58,180 nucleotides of DNA from Halioglobus sp. GTDB lineage: Bacteria; Pseudomonadota; Gammaproteobacteria; Pseudomonadales; Halieaceae. Positions 32,856 to 42,590 of this stretch are shown piece by piece. Location of the stretch: positions 1 through 58,180 of the forward strand of contig JARFQU010000101.1 in NCBI GenBank assembly GCA_029287595.1. The letters are read 5' to 3'. The notes under the pieces are model-generated. The model made no database searches, was not told the origin of the DNA, and saw only the letters and a list, made by a program, of their open reading frames with translations. Within the stretch, counting starts at the first letter, position 1, and each line of letters starts with the position of its first letter. A program made the position numbers and the translations under genes.

Positions 32856-33368
32856 TTACCCCGATAGTAATGCCTCCAGCGCGTGCACATGGGGATCGTA
32901 ATCGCCCAACTCCCGCAGCGCCTCGGCGAGTTGCAGCAGGTAGTCGGTATTGCTGCCGCTGGGACCGTGGGAGCGGGAAATGTGCGCGGCCAGTTCTGTC
33001 AGCTCGGCCGGCCCCAGGTAGGCGTGATTGTCCTCCCTGGCCACGTAGATCACGCCGTGCACATCGACTCCGCTATCATCCAGGAAGACTGGCACCGTGT
33101 GACGCTCATAGCCGTTCTTTTCCCGGTGGTCCAGGTGCTCGAAAACCTCTGGCTCGATGAGGTAGGCCACCCCCCGGCATACCGCCGCACCGGAGGGAAT
33201 AAGGGTAACCACTCGGCCGGGTGCGCAGGGGGTGCCGCGATGGTCGTGGGAACCCTGCCAGAAACGCCTCTCCCAACCGCGGATGCTCGCCGTCGCCCTC
33301 TCCACGTAAGGGAAGTCCACCTTGTAGATGAGTGAGCCATAGCCGAAAACCCAGGTCTGCTCCACCAT
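32856..33368 (-). CDS. chaC: ChaC-like gamma-glutamylcyclotransferase
   Basis: Predicted to cleave glutathione to 5-oxoproline and Cys-Gly. The 170-residue protein has the binding loop FGYGSLI near the N-terminus, the catalytic glutamate in REKNGYERH, and the C-terminal GPSGSNTDYLLQLAEAL block typical of the ChaC family. The ATG at 33368 overlaps the stop of the upstream regulator (TGATG), implying translational coupling; an alternative ATG at 33383 has no ribosome binding site. Coupling to a TrmB-type regulator is unusual for this enzyme. Confidence 0.85.
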   Translation of the reverse strand: MVEQTWVFGYGSLIYKVDFPYVERATASIRGWERRFWQGSHDHRGTPCAPGRVVTLIPSGAAVCRGVAYLIEPEVFEHLDHREKNGYERHTVPVFLDDSGVDVHGVIYVAREDNHAYLGPAELTELAAHISRSHGPSGSNTDYLLQLAEALRELGDYDPHVHALEALLSG

Positions 33369-34108
33369 CAAAGCAGCCCCCATAAAGTATTGAATAAAAT
33401 CTGCTGGGTTGACGCAATAGCGGCAGAATCGATGATGACTACCACGGGATAATTTTTATCTGCCAGGGTAATCATGGCCACCTTGGGGGGGTAGATGGCT
33501 ATGTAGGAAGCATCGGCGGTGGCTGCCGCCGGCAGCCACTTGCGCTCGGCGTACTCCGCCTCATCGCCACCTTCACCCACAGCGATTACCCGTACCCTGA
33601 TGCCGCGCTCTTCGCGCTGGGTGGTGAAGTTTGGAAAGGGCCGGTACAGGTGCTCGCGCAGGGTTTTGCTGGAGATCACTGCGTAGCCCCGCTCCGGGTC
33701 GCGACCAGTACTGTCGAGAATATCGCGCAGTACCAGCTCCACGCCATCGTCCCCCTCGTAAAAGCGTACATTGCCCGGGCTGAACTCGGCCTGTGATTGC
33801 TTCAGTTCCGGAATAACCTCGGTGCGCAACTGTTCCATAGCCTGGCTCAGCGCCTGCTGTCGGCGCTCGCCGAGTTGCAGCAATTGTTCGGGCTGTTCCG
33901 CCTGGAATACCCGTCGTTTACCGCGGGGAAAATAATTAACCACGCCCTTGGTGGCCAGCAATTTCAATGTTTCATAGGTGGTGCCGCGGTTGATTCCCGC
34001 CGTTGTCGCGATGTCGCGGATGGACGCGGGCCCAAGCTGTAGCAGGGCGCGATAGATATTGATTTCCCGGTCGTCCAGGCCGAGCTGGTGCAGGCTGTCC
34101 AGTTTCAT
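33368..34108 (-). CDS. TrmB-type / MarR-like transcriptional regulator
   Basis: A 246-residue regulator with an N-terminal winged helix-turn-helix (about residues 10-70; ASIRDIATTAGINRGTTYET), a short coiled-coil linker and a C-terminal ligand-sensing domain resembling TrmB-family proteins. TrmB regulators bind sugars or sugar-related ligands in characterised members. It is divergent from glmU and separated by a region with two matching palindromes, so it probably controls itself and glmUS. It is coupled to the ChaC-like gene downstream. Confidence 0.75.
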   Translation of the reverse strand: MKLDSLHQLGLDDREINIYRALLQLGPASIRDIATTAGINRGTTYETLKLLATKGVVNYFPRGKRRVFQAEQPEQLLQLGERRQQALSQAMEQLRTEVIPELKQSQAEFSPGNVRFYEGDDGVELVLRDILDSTGRDPERGYAVISSKTLREHLYRPFPNFTTQREERGIRVRVIAVGEGGDEAEYAERKWLPAAATADASYIAIYPPKVAMITLADKNYPVVVIIDSAAIASTQQILFNTLWGLL

Positions 34109-34112
34109 ATGT

Positions 34113-34131
34113 TGTCAATAAATTTGTGACA
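34113..34131. promoter_or_regulatory. Putative operator, copy 1
   Basis: TGTCA and TGACA, separated by ATAAATTTG (9 bases), form a 19-bp inverted repeat that begins 5 bp upstream of the regulator start. Its twin is at 34186-34204, with the same arms and spacing. Likely a binding site for the adjacent TrmB-type regulator. Confidence 0.55.
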
Positions 34132-34138
34132 AAAAGCG

Positions 34139-34166
34139 TTGTATTGATAATACACCTGTTTAATAT
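34139..34166 (+). promoter_or_regulatory. Possible promoter toward glmU
   Basis: TTGTAT (34139-34144) and TAATAT (34161-34166) are 16 bp apart. The element lies between the two operator copies and contains a further perfect palindrome, GTATT-GAT-AATAC (34141-34153). Repressor bound at both flanking sites would enclose it. Confidence 0.35.
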
Positions 34167-34185
34167 GCGTTTTGTACTAATATTA

Positions 34186-34204
34186 TGTCAATAAAATACT
34201 GACA
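34186..34204. promoter_or_regulatory. Putative operator, copy 2
   Basis: TGTCA and TGACA, separated by ATAAAATAC (9 bases), repeat the architecture of 34113-34131, 73 bp away, which is close to seven helical turns. The left arm read on the minus strand gives TTGACA, a consensus -35, with CATATT 18 bp further as a fair -10, so this copy overlaps a likely promoter of the regulator gene. Confidence 0.55.
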
Positions 34205-34239
34205 GCGGGCGTTGGCCGGCGGTTATGGAAGCTCTCTCT

Positions 34240-35604
34240 ATGAATCTCGAAGTCATTATCCTCGCAGCGGGGCAAGGCACCCGCATGAAATCCCCGTTGC
34301 CCAAGGTGCTGCACCCGGTGGCCGGCCGGCCCATGCTACAGCATGTGGTAGAGACTGCTCGCGCGCTGCAGGCAAAAGCCATTCATGTGGTGGTGGGGCA
34401 CGGCGCGGAGCAGGTCCGTGTGGCGCTGGATGATTCCGCCCTGACCTGGGTAACCCAGGAACAGCAATTGGGTACCGGCCATGCGGTGCTGCAAGCCATG
34501 CCCGCAGTGCAGCCGGACAGCACCGTGTTGATTCTGTATGGCGACGTACCGCTGATATCGGCCGCCACCCTGGAAAGGCTGGTTGCGGTGGCGGTTTCGG
34601 CGCCGGCGCTGTTGACCGCAAGGGTGGCAAAGCCCGCGGGTTATGGCCGTATTCTGCGCGATGAGGCCGGCGCCCTGGTAGGCGTGGTCGAGCACAAGGA
34701 TGCCAGTGACAGCCAGTTGCTTATCGATGAAATCAATAGCGGTGTCCTGGCGGCGCCGGCGAGTGATCTGCAGCAGTACCTGCCGGCGATAAAGAATGAA
34801 AACAGCCAGGGTGAATTCTACCTGCCAGACGTGTTGGCAATGGCCGTGGCAGACGGCAAGGCCGTCGCCACCTGCATGGCGGAATCGGAGCTGGAGATTC
34901 AGGGCGTCAACGACCGGGTGCAGTTGAACCAGGTGGAGCGGGAATTCCAGCGCCTGCAGGCCGAGCAATTGATGCGTGCCGGGGTGTCGCTGGCCGACGG
35001 CAGTCGCCTGGATGTGCGCGGTGTGTTGCACTGTGGGGTCGACGTGAGCATCGACGTGAATGTGGTGCTGGAGGGCGTGGTGACCCTCGGGGATGGCGTC
35101 AGTATCGGCCCCAATTGCGTATTGCGCGACGTGACCGTGGGAGAGGGCGCCACTATTCACGCTATGAGTCATCTGCAGGAAGCCGACGTCGGAGCCGCTT
35201 GCAGCGTTGGCCCCTACGCGCGATTGCGCCCCGGTACGGTGCTGGGCGCCGGTGCCCGCATCGGCAATTTTGTGGAGACCAAGAATGCGAATATCGGATT
35301 GGGGAGCAAGGTAAATCACCTGACCTATATAGGGGACTGTGACATGGGGGCCGGAGTGAATATCGGTGCGGGCACCATCACCTGCAACTACGATGGCGCC
35401 AACAAATTCAGGACGGAAATCGGGGATGGCGTGTTCGTGGGTTCCAATAGTACTCTGGTGGCACCGCTGCAGATAGCAGAGCAGGGCTTTATCGGCGCCG
35501 GCTCTACTGTTACGCGGGCCGTGGATAAGGGCGAATTGGCGGTGAGTCGAGCGCGACAGCGCAATATTTCGGGCTGGCAGCGCCCTACAAAAAACAAGGA
35601 CTGA
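34240..35604 (+). CDS. glmU: Bifunctional UDP-N-acetylglucosamine pyrophosphorylase / glucosamine-1-phosphate N-acetyltransferase
   Basis: Makes UDP-GlcNAc from glucosamine-1-phosphate for peptidoglycan and LPS. The ATG at 34240 (MNLEVIILAAGQGTRMKS) gives 454 residues, matching the family; an in-frame ATG at 34225 is less likely because GGAAG lies between them as a ribosome binding site. The uridyltransferase domain has LAAGQGTRMKS and the C-terminal half consists of left-handed beta-helix hexapeptide repeats. glmS follows after 2 bp. Confidence 0.97.
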   Translation: MNLEVIILAAGQGTRMKSPLPKVLHPVAGRPMLQHVVETARALQAKAIHVVVGHGAEQVRVALDDSALTWVTQEQQLGTGHAVLQAMPAVQPDSTVLILYGDVPLISAATLERLVAVAVSAPALLTARVAKPAGYGRILRDEAGALVGVVEHKDASDSQLLIDEINSGVLAAPASDLQQYLPAIKNENSQGEFYLPDVLAMAVADGKAVATCMAESELEIQGVNDRVQLNQVEREFQRLQAEQLMRAGVSLADGSRLDVRGVLHCGVDVSIDVNVVLEGVVTLGDGVSIGPNCVLRDVTVGEGATIHAMSHLQEADVGAACSVGPYARLRPGTVLGAGARIGNFVETKNANIGLGSKVNHLTYIGDCDMGAGVNIGAGTITCNYDGANKFRTEIGDGVFVGSNSTLVAPLQIAEQGFIGAGSTVTRAVDKGELAVSRARQRNISGWQRPTKNKD

Positions 35605-35606
35605 TT

Positions 35607-37436
35607 ATGTGTGGCATCGTGGCCGCGGCGGCGCGGCGGGAAGTATCAGAGATTTTGCTGGAGGGCCTGCGACGGCTGGAATATCGCGGCTACGATTCTG
35701 CGGGTATGGCGCTGGTCGACAACGAGCACAACCTGCAATTACACAAACGCCAGGGCAAGGTTGCTGAACTGGAAAAAGCCCAGGCGTTGCAACCCTACTT
35801 CGGTTGCACGGGTATCGCTCACACCCGTTGGGCGACTCACGGCGAGCCCTCCGGAGCCAATGCGCATCCCCATATCTCCGCCCAGCGTGTGGCCCTGGTG
35901 CACAACGGCATCATCGAAAACCACGAGGCGCTGCGCCAGGAGCTCTCCGCGCAGGGCTACACCTTCGATTCTGCCACGGATTCGGAGGTGATCGTGCACC
36001 TGCTACACGAATGCTTATCCCGGGGTGTAAACCTGGTGCAGGCGATGCGCGACACGGTGGCCAGGCTCGAAGGGGCCTACGCCCTGGCGGTGGTGGATGT
36101 GGAGCACCCTGATGAAGTGGTCGCTGCCCGCCAGGGGAGCCCACTGGTGATTGGCGTGGGTATAGGGGAAAACTTCCTCGCGTCGGATCCTATGGCACTG
36201 CGCCAGGTGACGGACCGCTTTATGTACCTGGAGGAGGGGGACCTGGTGCAAATCACGCCCTCGTCGCTGCAGGTTTATGCAGCTGATGGCTCACCGGTGC
36301 AGCGTGAAAAAATACGCATCGACGAGGCGGTTGAGGTTGTGGAACTGGGCCACTTCGATCATTACATGATCAAGGAAATTCATGAGCAGCCCCGTGCCCT
36401 GGCCGCAACCCTGAAGGCCGGAGTTGCCGAGACAGTTAGCGACGACTGCTTCGGTGCTGGCGCCACCGCAATATTCGATCAGGTGCAACAGGTGCAGATT
36501 GTTGCTTGCGGCACCAGTTTTCATGCCGGTCTGGTGGCGCGTTACTGGCTGGAGGAATTGGCAGGGGTGTCCTGCCAGGTAGAAGTAGCATCAGAATTTC
36601 GCTATCGCAGTCGGGTGCGGCAGGAAGGCACCCTGCTGGTAGCGATCTCACAGTCGGGGGAGACCGCAGATACTTTGGCCGCCCTGCGCAACGCGGCGCC
36701 TGATGAATTTTTGGGCTCCCTGGTGATTTCCAATGTGGACAACAGTTCCCTGGTGCGGGAGTGCGACCTGGTGTTCCTGACCCGCGCCGGCGCGGAAATC
36801 GGGGTGGCCTCGACCAAGGCCTTTACCACTCAGCTGCTGTCCCTGCTGCTGCTAACGGTTGCCCTGGGTCGGCGTCGCCAAATGACTCACGATCAGCAAC
36901 TGGAGATCGTCGAGGCATTGCACCGTCTGCCGGAGTATGTACAGCAGACCCTGGAGATGGACGCGGCTATCCAGAAGTTATCCGAAGCATTTATACCCAA
37001 ACACCACGCGCTGTTCCTGGGCCGCGGTATACAGTATCCGGTAGCCATGGAAGGTGCGCTCAAGCTCAAGGAAATTTCCTATATTCATGCGGAAGCCTAC
37101 CCGGCCGGCGAACTCAAGCACGGCCCGCTGGCCCTGGTGGATGACGATATGCCGGTGGTCGCGGTAGCACCCAACGACGAGCTGCTGGAAAAACTCAAAT
37201 CCAACCTGGAGGAAGTTCGCTCCCGGGGTGGTGAATTATTCGTTTTCGCCGACCGCCAGGCGGGTTTTACCAGCGAGCCGCGGGTGCAGGTGATGTCTAT
37301 GCCGCACTGCCCGGAAGTACTCAAGCCCATCGTCTACACCGTGGCTTTGCAATTATTGTCTTACCATGTGGCGGTGCAGAAAGGCACGGATGTGGACAAG
37401 CCGCGCAACCTGGCGAAGTCGGTCACCGTGGAGTGA
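35607..37436 (+). CDS. glmS: Glutamine-fructose-6-phosphate aminotransferase (isomerizing)
   Basis: Makes glucosamine-6-phosphate from fructose-6-phosphate and glutamine, the first step to UDP-GlcNAc. At 609 residues it has the catalytic N-terminal Cys (MCGIVAA), the glutaminase block YRGYDSAG, two SIS domains (SQSGETADT and the second in the last third), and the C-terminal DKPRNLAKSVTVE. It forms an operon with glmU and overlaps the next gene by 4 bp. No glmS ribozyme-like leader is present. Confidence 0.98.
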   Translation: MCGIVAAAARREVSEILLEGLRRLEYRGYDSAGMALVDNEHNLQLHKRQGKVAELEKAQALQPYFGCTGIAHTRWATHGEPSGANAHPHISAQRVALVHNGIIENHEALRQELSAQGYTFDSATDSEVIVHLLHECLSRGVNLVQAMRDTVARLEGAYALAVVDVEHPDEVVAARQGSPLVIGVGIGENFLASDPMALRQVTDRFMYLEEGDLVQITPSSLQVYAADGSPVQREKIRIDEAVEVVELGHFDHYMIKEIHEQPRALAATLKAGVAETVSDDCFGAGATAIFDQVQQVQIVACGTSFHAGLVARYWLEELAGVSCQVEVASEFRYRSRVRQEGTLLVAISQSGETADTLAALRNAAPDEFLGSLVISNVDNSSLVRECDLVFLTRAGAEIGVASTKAFTTQLLSLLLLTVALGRRRQMTHDQQLEIVEALHRLPEYVQQTLEMDAAIQKLSEAFIPKHHALFLGRGIQYPVAMEGALKLKEISYIHAEAYPAGELKHGPLALVDDDMPVVAVAPNDELLEKLKSNLEEVRSRGGELFVFADRQAGFTSEPRVQVMSMPHCPEVLKPIVYTVALQLLSYHVAVQKGTDVDKPRNLAKSVTVE

Positions 37437-39487: not shown

Positions 39488-40351
39488 CTAATCGGGGCTG
39501 CGCAGGGACTGCAATCCCCGGTTGAGTTTGCTCAGGTGCCGGTCGACCTCGGCGCCCTTCATTTTTGATACGCCCACGGCCAGGATATCTATTACAGCCA
39601 GGTGTGCGATGCGCGATGGCAGCGGGGTGTAACTCTCATCGCTGGCCTGCGCCACGTCTATTGGAATGGGAACGGTGCACTGGCGGATAACCGGGGTATT
39701 GCCGGGAGCCAGGCCGATAATAACGGCGCCTGCCTCGCGCACGTGATCCATAGCCTCCAACAGCGAGGTCGTGCGCCCTGATTGGGAGATCGCCACCACC
39801 ACATCGTCGGGCGTCAGTGACATCGCGGACATGGCCTGCAGGTGCGGATCTGACAGGGCGGCGCTGGCTATTTGCAGGCGGAAAAACTTGTGCTGCGCGT
39901 CGATGGCCACCGGGCTGGAGGCCCCGAAGCCGTAGAATTCGACCCGCCGGGCATTGCACAGGGCATCTACCGCGACCTCAATGGCGTCCGGATCCAGGGT
40001 ATCGCGCACCTGCTGCAGGGTGTTCATAGTGGCGTCGAATACCTTGTAGGTGTAATCCCGCGCGGTGTCCAGTTCGCTCAGTGAGAAGGGCTGCACCGAA
40101 GGGCTGGCAGCGGTGCTCTGGGCCAGCGCCACTTTGAAGTTCTGGAAGCCCTCGCAGCCAATGGCCCGGCAAAAACGCACCACGGTCGGTTCGCTGACCT
40201 GAGCCGCACTGGCCAGGTCCACGATGCGCATGTGGATGACCTCATCGGGTCTGGCTAATACCAGGTCCGCCACTTTGCGCTCGGAGCGGCGCAATTGTTC
40301 CAGGTGGCGCTCTATTTCCCGAAGAATGGGTTTGTTGCTTATGGTCACCAC
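39488..40351 (-). CDS. RpiR/HexR-type transcriptional regulator
   Basis: A DNA-binding helix-turn-helix domain (about residues 1-80; RIVDLASAAQVSEPTVVRFC) is followed by a SIS sugar-phosphate-binding domain (about 125-260; ISQSGRTTSLLEAM). A GTG start at 40351 gives 288 residues, the usual size; the open frame reaches 40660 but would overlap uvrD. HexR members sense KDPG and control glucose catabolism, but no such genes are adjacent, so the target is unknown. It is divergent from uvrD. Confidence 0.85.
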   Translation of the reverse strand: MVTISNKPILREIERHLEQLRRSERKVADLVLARPDEVIHMRIVDLASAAQVSEPTVVRFCRAIGCEGFQNFKVALAQSTAASPSVQPFSLSELDTARDYTYKVFDATMNTLQQVRDTLDPDAIEVAVDALCNARRVEFYGFGASSPVAIDAQHKFFRLQIASAALSDPHLQAMSAMSLTPDDVVVAISQSGRTTSLLEAMDHVREAGAVIIGLAPGNTPVIRQCTVPIPIDVAQASDESYTPLPSRIAHLAVIDILAVGVSKMKGAEVDRHLSKLNRGLQSLRSPD

Positions 40352-40439
40352 CTTTGCCGACTGGTCTGCTGTGGCTTTTATTATACATATTTGCGCCACA
40401 TACCCTTCAGTAGTGCGACAATTTAGATAGAATGCGTCG

Positions 40440-42590
40440 ATGGATGTATCTGATATTCTCTCCCCTCTCAACGATGCCCAGCGCGACGCGGTAGCAGCTG
40501 AAAACCAGAACCTTTTGGTATTGGCAGGCGCTGGCAGTGGTAAAACCCGGGTGCTGGTGCACCGCATCGCCTGGTTGATACGGGCCCTGGACTTTTCTCC
40601 CTGGTCTATCCTGGCGGTCACTTTTACCAACAAGGCTGCACGGGAAATGCGCAGCCGCATAGAGGAGATGCTGCAGATACCCTCTCACGGTATGTGGGTG
40701 GGAACCTTTCACGGCCTGGCCCACCGGCTGTTGAAGGCGCACTGGAAAGAAGCGGGTTTGCCCCAGAACTTCCAGATCCTGGACAGCGACGACCAGCTGC
40801 GCCTGGTCAAGCGGGTGTGCCGGGAGCTGGAGCTGGACGAGTCGCGCTGGCCGCCCAAGCAGGCCCAGTGGTATATCAACGGCCAGAAAGACGAGGGCCT
40901 GCGTGCGGCCCATATCCAGGTGCCCCCCGGGGATCTCTTCGGCCAGACCATGCTGCAGGTTTACCGTGCCTACGAGGCGGCCTGCGAACGCGGCGGCATG
41001 GTGGACTTCGCCGAACTGCTATTGCGCGCCCATGAATTGTGGCTGAAAAACCCCGAGGTTTTACAGCATTACCGGGGACGTTTCCGGCAAATCCTGGTGG
41101 ACGAGTTCCAGGACACCAACACCATTCAGTACGCCTGGTTGCGGGTGCTGGCCGGCACCGATATTCCGGTGGTGGCGGTGGGTGATGATGACCAGTCCAT
41201 CTATGGCTGGCGCGGTGCGAAGATAGAAAACATCCAGCGCTTTGCCGAGGATTTTGCCGCCACGCGCACTGTGCGCCTGGAGCAGAATTACCGCTCCACC
41301 CAGACAATCCTGCAGGCTGCCAACGGTATTATCGCCCACAACTTCGGTCGCCTGGGAAAGGAGTTGTGGTCCGCAGGCGAATCCGGTGAGCCGATAACCC
41401 TTTACGCGGGTTTTAACGAGCAGGACGAGGCCCGCTTTATTGTCGAGCAGGCCCACAGCTGGATACTGGAGGGCAATAATCGCTCTTCGGTTGCGGTGTT
41501 ATACCGCTCCAACGCCCAGTCCCGGGTAATGGAGGAGGCGCTGATTCGCGCGGCCATTCCCTATCGTATCTACGGCGGGCAGCGGTTTTATGAGCGCATG
41601 GAGATACGCAACGCCCTGGCGTACATGCGGCTGCTGGTGAGCCGCGGTGATGACGCCGCGGTGGAGCGGGTAATCAATACCCCGCCGCGCGGTATCGGCA
41701 GCAAAACCCTGGATACCGTGCGCGAGTGTGCCCGTTCCCGCGAAATATCCCTGTGGCGGGCCATTGCGGCAGTGATTGAAGAAAAACTTCTGCCGGCCCG
41801 CGCGCTGGCCGCGCTGGAAGGGTTTACCGTGCTGATCAATGACCTGGACACTCGCAGCGACGATATGGTCCTGGAAGAGATCGCTGAGCAAGTGATCCAG
41901 GGTGCCGGGTTGGTGGCGTATTATGAGAAGGAAAAGGGCGAGCGCGGCCAGGCGCGAGTGGAAAACCTGGAGGAGCTGGTCAGTGCGGCCAAGCAATTTG
42001 TCCCTGAGGGTGAGGAATTGTCGCCGCTGCAGCAGTTTCTTGACAGTGCAGCGCTGGACGCGGGTGATGCCCAGGCGGAGGAGCACGAGGACAGCATTCA
42101 GATGATGACTCTGCATTCCGCCAAGGGTTTGGAGTTCCCGCTGGTGTTTCTGTCGGGGATGGAGGAAAACCTGTTTCCTCACCGTATGTCACTGGAGGAG
42201 CCGGGACGTTTGGAGGAGGAACGTCGCCTTTGCTATGTGGGAATTACCCGCGCCATGGAAAAGCTGGTGATGACCTATGCCGAGAGCCGGCGCCTGCACG
42301 GCAGCGAAAATTACAACACGCCCTCGCGTTTCTTGCGTGAAATACCTGCGCAGCTGTTGCAGGAGGTACGCTTGAACACCGCGATAGTCAGGCCGGTAAG
42401 CAGCATTACCCAGGCGCAGGTACCGGACACCGAGTTGAGCCTGGGACAGCGCGTTTACCACCGCATCTTCGGCGAGGGCACCGTGCTAAACTTTGAGGGG
42501 CGAGGCAGCAGTGCCCGGGTGGAAGTCAATTTCGACGACGAGGGCAGCAAGTGGCTGGTGCTGCAATACGCCAATTTGCAGTTACTATAA
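40440..42590 (+). CDS. uvrD: DNA helicase II (UvrD)
   Basis: SF1A 3'-5' helicase of nucleotide excision and mismatch repair. At 716 residues it has all major motifs: AGAGSGKTRVL (Walker A), TFTNKAAREM, DEFQDTN (Walker B), VGDDDQSIYGWRGA, QNYRST, LHSAKGLEF and VGITRAME, plus a C-terminal tail with an HRIFGEGTV element. It starts 88 bp from the divergent RpiR gene. Confidence 0.97.
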   Translation: MDVSDILSPLNDAQRDAVAAENQNLLVLAGAGSGKTRVLVHRIAWLIRALDFSPWSILAVTFTNKAAREMRSRIEEMLQIPSHGMWVGTFHGLAHRLLKAHWKEAGLPQNFQILDSDDQLRLVKRVCRELELDESRWPPKQAQWYINGQKDEGLRAAHIQVPPGDLFGQTMLQVYRAYEAACERGGMVDFAELLLRAHELWLKNPEVLQHYRGRFRQILVDEFQDTNTIQYAWLRVLAGTDIPVVAVGDDDQSIYGWRGAKIENIQRFAEDFAATRTVRLEQNYRSTQTILQAANGIIAHNFGRLGKELWSAGESGEPITLYAGFNEQDEARFIVEQAHSWILEGNNRSSVAVLYRSNAQSRVMEEALIRAAIPYRIYGGQRFYERMEIRNALAYMRLLVSRGDDAAVERVINTPPRGIGSKTLDTVRECARSREISLWRAIAAVIEEKLLPARALAALEGFTVLINDLDTRSDDMVLEEIAEQVIQGAGLVAYYEKEKGERGQARVENLEELVSAAKQFVPEGEELSPLQQFLDSAALDAGDAQAEEHEDSIQMMTLHSAKGLEFPLVFLSGMEENLFPHRMSLEEPGRLEEERRLCYVGITRAMEKLVMTYAESRRLHGSENYNTPSRFLREIPAQLLQEVRLNTAIVRPVSSITQAQVPDTELSLGQRVYHRIFGEGTVLNFEGRGSSARVEVNFDDEGSKWLVLQYANLQLL

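Follow-up and report, generated by a model that had tools for sequence, protein, structure and literature searches.

The DNA analysed here, called the window, is a stretch of 58,180 bases from Halioglobus sp. (contig JARFQU010000101.1 of assembly GCA_029287595.1). Near its position 34,100, a gene for a TrmB-family regulator, read leftward, diverges from glmU and glmS, which are read rightward and are presumably co-transcribed. Two perfect TGTCA-N9-TGACA palindromes, 73 bp apart from centre to centre, lie between the divergent genes, exactly at the positions given in an earlier, sequence-only reading of this DNA. The layout of the region is as follows.

33368..34108, minus strand: gene for the TrmB-family regulator, 246 aa, with an N-terminal winged HTH and a C-terminal domain of TrmB-like predicted fold
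34113..34131, no strand: putative operator 1, TGTCA-N9-TGACA, TGTCAATAAATTTGTGACA; the core site, centred at about -51 from the predicted glmU transcription start
34139..34144, plus strand: predicted glmU -35 box, TTGTAT; in relatives, TTG stands at offset +8 from the operator
34141-34153: third palindrome, GTATTGATAATAC, overlapping the predicted glmU -35 box
34161..34166, plus strand: predicted glmU -10 box, TAATAT, with a 16-bp spacer to the -35 box; in relatives, TANNNT stands at offset +30
34163..34168, minus strand: predicted regulator -10 box, GCATAT, found by inspection; overlaps the glmU -10 box, with a 17-bp spacer to TTGACA
34186..34204, no strand: putative operator 2, TGTCA-N9-TGACA, TGTCAATAAAATACTGACA, centred at about +23 from the predicted glmU transcription start
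34191-34186, minus strand: predicted regulator -35 box, TTGACA, formed by the left arm of operator 2
34240..35604, plus strand: glmU (TIGR01173, score 608); the ORF is also open from 34225
35607..37436, plus strand: glmS (TIGR01135, score 829), the next gene after glmU

The pair makes up all the matches to TGTCA-N9-TGACA in the window. Shuffled versions of the window contain a mean of 0.05 matches, and none of 100 shuffles contains two. Over the genome as a whole (G000, 3.69 Mb), there is a single match beyond the pair, with a mixed, GC-richer spacer. As had been noticed earlier, the second palindrome overlaps a TTGACA box directed toward the regulator. The third palindrome, also pointed out earlier, exists, but it is not conserved among relatives and was rejected as a functional element on that ground. 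The start of glmU is more likely the ATG at 34240 than 34225, judging from the frames of 14 relatives, in most of which an ATG directly precedes the equivalents of N-L-E-V. The predicted divergent -10 boxes overlap on opposite strands at 34161-34168 (TAATAT and GCATAT), forming a symmetric bidirectional promoter core.

Two further genes are found nearby. A chaC-type gamma-glutamylcyclotransferase gene (32856-33383, minus strand) overlaps the 3' end of the regulator gene. Its protein has no tblastn match (E ≤ 1e-8) in the available stretches of 78 named regulator-encoding loci; some of these stretches stop close to the regulator. The chaC-type gene may have been inserted locally. A gene for a HexR-like RpiR/SIS regulator (39488-40660, minus strand) follows glmS at a distance of about 2 kb. 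Its ORF has about 110 extra N-terminal residues, and its true start is probably internal.

The window regulator matches PF01978 over residues 6-73 (E 2.2e-13; 50.3 bits, with a cutoff of 25.6). The C-terminal effector-binding domain PF11495 gives no Pfam match at E ≤ 0.01. The predicted structure has a mean pLDDT of 88 and a pTM of 0.55, the relative placement of its domains being unsure. Foldseek matches it to TrmBL2, to full-length TrmB (3qph, E 1.4e-8), and to the sugar-binding domain of TrmB (2f5t, E 9.6e-5); normalised by the query, the TM-scores are low at 0.33-0.46. The models for the archaeal TrmB equivalogs are far from reached (NF040851, 31.9 with a cutoff of 600; NF047390, 29 with a cutoff of 650). 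Judged by these profiles, the protein is a relative within the TrmB family and not the same orthologue as archaeal TrmB. The recognition helix carries a Tyr and an acidic residue, Y45-E46, that correspond, as judged by eye, to Y49/D50 of TrmBL1 (excerpts of PMC4158304). Among 40 regulator sequences, E46 is nearly invariant, and the Tyr is replaced by His in G209, G173, G186, and G296.

The regulator has a single match in every genome that carries one. Its identity to the proteins of Seongchinamella, Pseudohalioglobus, and Mangrovimicrobium is 84-90%, which places the window in Halieaceae. In a sample of its gammaproteobacterial order, 68 of 390 genomes have a match at 1e-20. Outside the order the regulator was not found, in that a class-wide sample of 369 genomes gave a match at 1e-30 only in the window's own genome. 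A midpoint-rooted tree of 36 regulator sequences broadly follows families: Saccharospirillum, Reinekea, and other genomes of family f6 stand on one side together with family f35, and the remaining lineages, including family f27, stand opposite. Family f6 is named Saccharospirillaceae here from this tree.

The palindromes are conserved with the gene pair. In 68 of the 78 named loci the regulator faces glmU within 500 bp, and a perfect TGTCA-N9-TGACA lies between the two genes in 67 of these; the exception, L115, has one arm mismatch. Absence of the palindrome from relatives with the same gene pair, which the sequence-only reading had named as the finding that would count against it, is thus not what is seen. 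The arms are constant across the named loci, and the spacers and flanks vary widely. The ATAAA with which both spacers in the window begin had been taken for a common feature; since spacers differ among relatives, and those of operator 1 share mainly A/T-richness, a function for it is not supported. In 68 of the 78 named loci, the 420 bp upstream of the regulator start contain a perfect site. The ten without one are L115; L125, L133, L138, and L167 (three Endozoicomonas and one titled Salinisphaera), in which a site lies about 2 kb or more from the regulator; and L157-L161 (Saccharospirillaceae), whose available stretches contain neither glmU nor a site. Among L125, L133, L138, and L167, the site is on the glmU side in the three whose stretch includes glmU; these three have about 2.3 kb between regulator and glmU.

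The sites also track the regulator from genome to genome. A regulator match is present in 36 of 140 Halieaceae genomes, one of them (G024) holding a remnant only. Paired sites occur in 22 of these 36, at one place per genome, vs none of the 104 without a match; a reversed control pattern occurs in none of the 140. The Fisher p-value of 1.5e-16 for this association is only indicative because the genomes counted are relatives and not independent. When the 420 or 600 bp upstream of glmU are examined, a perfect site is present in 24 of 29 regulator genomes vs none of 28 without an intact regulator (G023, which gave no glmU, was dropped, and G024 was read at the glmU copy away from its remnant). 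The five regulator genomes without a perfect glmU site are three of the glmS-linked family f35 and two, G186 and G394, with a degenerate site only. G002, which belongs to the same genus as the window, lacks both a regulator match and a paired site, and at glmU it has no site with at most one mismatch in the arms. Where the regulator is absent, glmS comes next after glmU in 24 of 28 loci, the other four having no glmS start in the available stretch, and no other gene, such as one for a DeoR-type regulator, was seen between glmU and glmS.

The sites also occur where the regulator gene is not linked. In families f6 and f27 (five genomes of each examined at glmU) the regulator lies away from glmU, yet a perfect glmU site is present in eight of the ten genomes. 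In family f35 it is glmS that the regulator faces, and all five genomes have two perfect sites in the gap between these genes, spaced by 71, 71, 92, 92, and 95 bp; no perfect site was found within 600 bp of glmU in the three f35 genomes examined there. It follows that the site goes with the pathway and not with the neighbourhood. Taken together, these comparisons indicate that the TGTCA-N9-TGACA palindromes are very probably operators of the adjacent TrmB-family regulator and, as had been suggested for this locus, that a TrmB-family protein very probably controls amino-sugar synthesis through them.

The position of operator 1 relative to the glmU promoter is rigid. We counted offsets in 96 loci with a perfect operator, 62 of which remain after removal of those at least 75% alike. 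The loci were chosen without requiring TTG, and they include L116 and L117, in which operator 2 was taken for operator 1. The offset from the operator to TTG is exactly 8 bp in 90 of the 96 loci (57 of the 62), and that to TANNNT is exactly 30 bp in 80 (51 of the 62); the next-best offsets occur in 12 loci for TTG and 11 for TANNNT. Operator 1 therefore forms one rigid unit with a promoter whose spacer is 16 bp long, the operator being centred at about -51 from the predicted start. Classical activators are centred at -41.5 or -61.5, and -51 is not among these positions. The distances to the -35 and -10 boxes are also kept in lineages with only one site. The distance from operator 1 to the regulator start varies, whereas that to the glmU -35 box is fixed.

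Operator 2 is less constant. A copy with at least 8 of 10 arm bases lies 73 or 74 bp from operator 1 in 38 of the 68 loci; any other distance between 40 and 139 bp is seen in at most two. Among the 30 loci without such a copy, at least 12 have one at another spacing, one with a 10-bp spacer, or a degenerate partner. Only one good site is present in, for example, Marinobacterium, the Osedax symbionts, and Oleispira. When N9 and N10 spacers are allowed in 86 loci, 46 perfect pairs are found within 250 bp, spaced by 71-75.5 bp in 42 cases, 92 bp in two, 95 bp in one, and 148 bp in one, that is, by 6.8-7.2, 8.8-9.1, and 14.1 turns. Where a second operator is present at these distances, it is in helical phase with the first. 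Only the few other spacings are independent evidence for phasing since the 73-bp cluster dominates and a few loci represent the same organism twice. The operator 2 copies with a 10-bp instead of a 9-bp spacer occur in several genera (L118, L122, L129, L131, L141, and L162); no such spacer was noticed at operator 1, which was selected with a 9-bp spacer.

To extend the comparison to whole genomes, a sequence-only model built on operator 1 was run on 30 regulator genomes, with the best 150 candidates per genome scored. It has a match in 29 of the 30. In 11 Halieaceae genomes every match at E ≤ 0.5 among the candidates scored falls between the regulator gene and glmU. The scan does not recover every site: most operator 2 copies and the perfect glmU site of G446 were missed. 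In Saccharospirillaceae, matches at E ≤ 0.3 are found in 10 of 13 regulator genomes vs one of nine others, and the remaining three regulator genomes have no match among the candidates scored. The one match in a genome without the regulator (G221, E 0.29) is weak and inside an ORF, and it was rejected as an operator. The Saccharospirillaceae sites lie upstream of pckA (eight genomes), fbp (two), a gap-like gene (one), and glmU (six), the names pckA, fbp, and gap resting on our reading of translated N-termini. Seven of the 17 sites have one arm mismatch (six of the eight at pckA and one of the six at glmU). In all 17 the best -10-like box, scanned from +22 to +44, is at +31 to +34, with ties in two fbp cases, and seven have no TTG between +2 and +15. 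The 17 include three near-identical pairs, namely the pckA, fbp, and glmU sites of G296 and G514. Extra matches in G436, G458, G480, G213, and G173 (C1:4928054), those at G458 C8 and G296 C17 aside, fall within genes or next to them, show no recurring theme, and are probably due to chance.

We propose, with a probability of about two in three, that operator 1 serves to activate glmU-glmS and that operator 2 adds phase-dependent feedback repression and autoregulation. The evidence consists of the sites, their conservation, co-occurrence, and geometry, and the neighbouring genes; from it we infer which protein binds the sites, the direction of regulation, the formation of a loop, and the ligand. 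The regulator bound at operator 1, some 51 bp upstream of the start of transcription, would activate the glmU-glmS promoter, whose predicted -35 box, TTGTAT, departs from consensus and is followed by a 16-bp spacer. Operator 1 is read as an activator site because it is upstream, rigidly spaced, and shared with gluconeogenic genes, several of them without a recognisable -35 box. Operator 2, seven turns away, would fall just within the glmU transcript, and it overlaps the predicted -35 box of the regulator gene. Its occupation, probably jointly with operator 1 by a higher-order oligomer, would repress both divergent promoters, providing feedback and autoregulation. The location of operator 2 inside the transcript suggests repression, and therefore the net effect in the window genome could be repressive. 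The signal is probably a hexose phosphate or an amino-sugar product, such as fructose-6-P, GlcN-6-P, or UDP-GlcNAc. It is tempting to go further, although this broader reading is tentative and we would put it a little short of even odds: the bacterial TrmB lineage may be a hexose-phosphate-sensing activator that couples gluconeogenesis to cell-wall precursors, acting on glmUS in most families, on glmS in one, and on pckA, fbp, and gap in Saccharospirillaceae, with the second, phased operator adding feedback on glmUS and the regulator.

Several regulators of this pathway are unrelated to TrmB. NagC of E. coli is a ROK-family protein and, going by the title of a 1995 report by Plumbridge, is said to be both an activator and a repressor at glmUS. 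GlmR of Shewanella and Pseudomonas controls amino-sugar (glm) genes, belongs to the DeoR family, and has another motif. B. subtilis GlmR (YvcK) is likewise unrelated to the TrmB protein. According to excerpts of the published accounts, NagC resembles the present system in controlling glmUS from two separated sites, where it is an activator, but it differs in having a 23-bp box and in also repressing the nag genes (PMC2806358). The transcription factor GlmR of Shewanella and Pseudomonas is assigned to LPS synthesis genes (excerpts of PMC3223726). B. subtilis GlmR diverts scarce fructose-6-P into UDP-GlcNAc during gluconeogenic growth, which is the same physiological need as proposed here, but its proposed action is on GlmS activity and not on transcription (excerpts of PMC6171935).

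The closer comparison is with TrmBL1/Tgr of Thermococcales and with haloarchaeal TrmB, which share the HTH family, a similar predicted fold, and palindromic operators with the window regulator. According to excerpts of the sources, TrmBL1 in archaea is an activator where its sites are upstream and a repressor where they are downstream, much as we propose for operators 1 and 2 (PMC4706686), and haloarchaeal TrmB mainly activates gluconeogenic genes, with fbp a leading target (PMC10817205). Targets at the gluconeogenesis node are common to both sides, namely fbp and a gap gene for haloarchaeal TrmB (PMC10817205) and fbp and the gap-like gene in Saccharospirillaceae. In contrast to archaeal TrmB, the bacterial regulator would act at sigma-70-type promoters, mainly on glmU/glmS; its C-terminal domain lacks a match to the Pfam TrmB effector domain; and its operator is TGTCA-N9-TGACA, compared with TATCAC-N5-GTGATA or TACT-N7-8-GAGTA in archaea (excerpts of PMC4706686, PMC10817205, and the review PMC4158304). 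The view that TrmB at glmUS is undescribed appears to hold: no report of TrmB-type control of glmU/glmS, UDP-GlcNAc, or pckA/gluconeogenesis in bacteria was found in the PMC-indexed literature, which covers few subscription papers.

GlmS and GlmU set the carbon flow from central metabolism to peptidoglycan and LPS. After NagC in E. coli and GlmR in Pseudomonas and Shewanella, the regulator would be a third, unrelated solution to their control. It belongs to a family known chiefly from archaea, and its proposed operator forms a rigid unit with the promoter in many marine genera. It would be the regulator to assign in Halieaceae, Endozoicomonas, Reinekea, and the Osedax symbionts. If the broader reading is true, haloarchaeal TrmB has a parallel in another domain of life, and the problem for which B. 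subtilis uses GlmR is solved here at the level of transcription.

The sequence-only reading had envisaged a looping or cooperative repressor, in which both operators are bound, the 73 bp are looped, and both divergent promoters are shut until a sugar ligand releases them. Part of this stands: two phased sites around a shared promoter region are supported by the conserved spacing, with all 46 perfect pairs near whole turns, and the predicted glmU start lies upstream of operator 2, which overlaps the predicted -35 box of the regulator. In addition, TrmBL1 forms tetramers and octamers (excerpts of PMC4158304). However, we consider it unlikely that the locus is primarily a looping repressor. An intact operator 2 is missing at 73/74 bp in 30 of the 68 loci, some lineages having one good site, while the upstream position of operator 1 is fixed regardless of operator 2, even where operator 1 is the sole perfect site and no regulator gene adjoins it. 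A lone repressor site upstream of a -35 box would be a poor blocker, and the operator 1-type sites upstream of gluconeogenic genes in Saccharospirillaceae, several without a -35 box, suggest activation. Activation with feedback through operator 2 is ranked above a pure looping repressor because of the rigid upstream operator, the non-consensus promoter, the gluconeogenic targets, and the precedents in known systems.

The remaining explanations fare worse. The TGTCA half-sites are short, and TrmB as the binder is deduced from sequence, so another protein, such as a different amino-sugar or carbon regulator, might bind the palindromes and the TrmB gene be a chance neighbour; this is improbable given that the sites track the TrmB regulator across families, whether adjoining or not, and that no perfect site is found at glmU in the 28 genomes examined that lack an intact regulator. 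Still more improbable is that the operators serve only the regulator's own promoter. In most linked loci operator 1 does lie a short way upstream of the start codon of the regulator gene, but the glmU site persists in eight of the ten f6 and f27 genomes with the regulator elsewhere, a perfect site is missing from the 420 bp next to the regulator start in all five named Saccharospirillaceae loci, and it is the distance to the glmU -35 box, not that to the regulator start, that is fixed. That the palindromes have arisen by chance and lack function has only their shortness in its favour and is hardly credible in light of the shuffles, the co-occurrence of paired sites with the regulator, the conservation, and the promoter geometry.

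Two local variants of the arrangement are of interest beside the proposed activator system. In the draft genome G024, locus L023 (G024:C165) has a regulator remnant without most of the N-terminal part, beside a second glmU copy, with an imperfect palindrome near it; the remnant is probably the product of decay, or else a binning artefact. In the glmS-linked family f35 (L250, L251, and L275-L277), only a few bases separate the end of operator 2 from the start codon of glmS, and the spacer of this operator contains a purine-rich stretch (AAAGGA or similar). This stretch may be the ribosome-binding site, and its placement within operator 2 may constrain the sequence further or provide another way of control.
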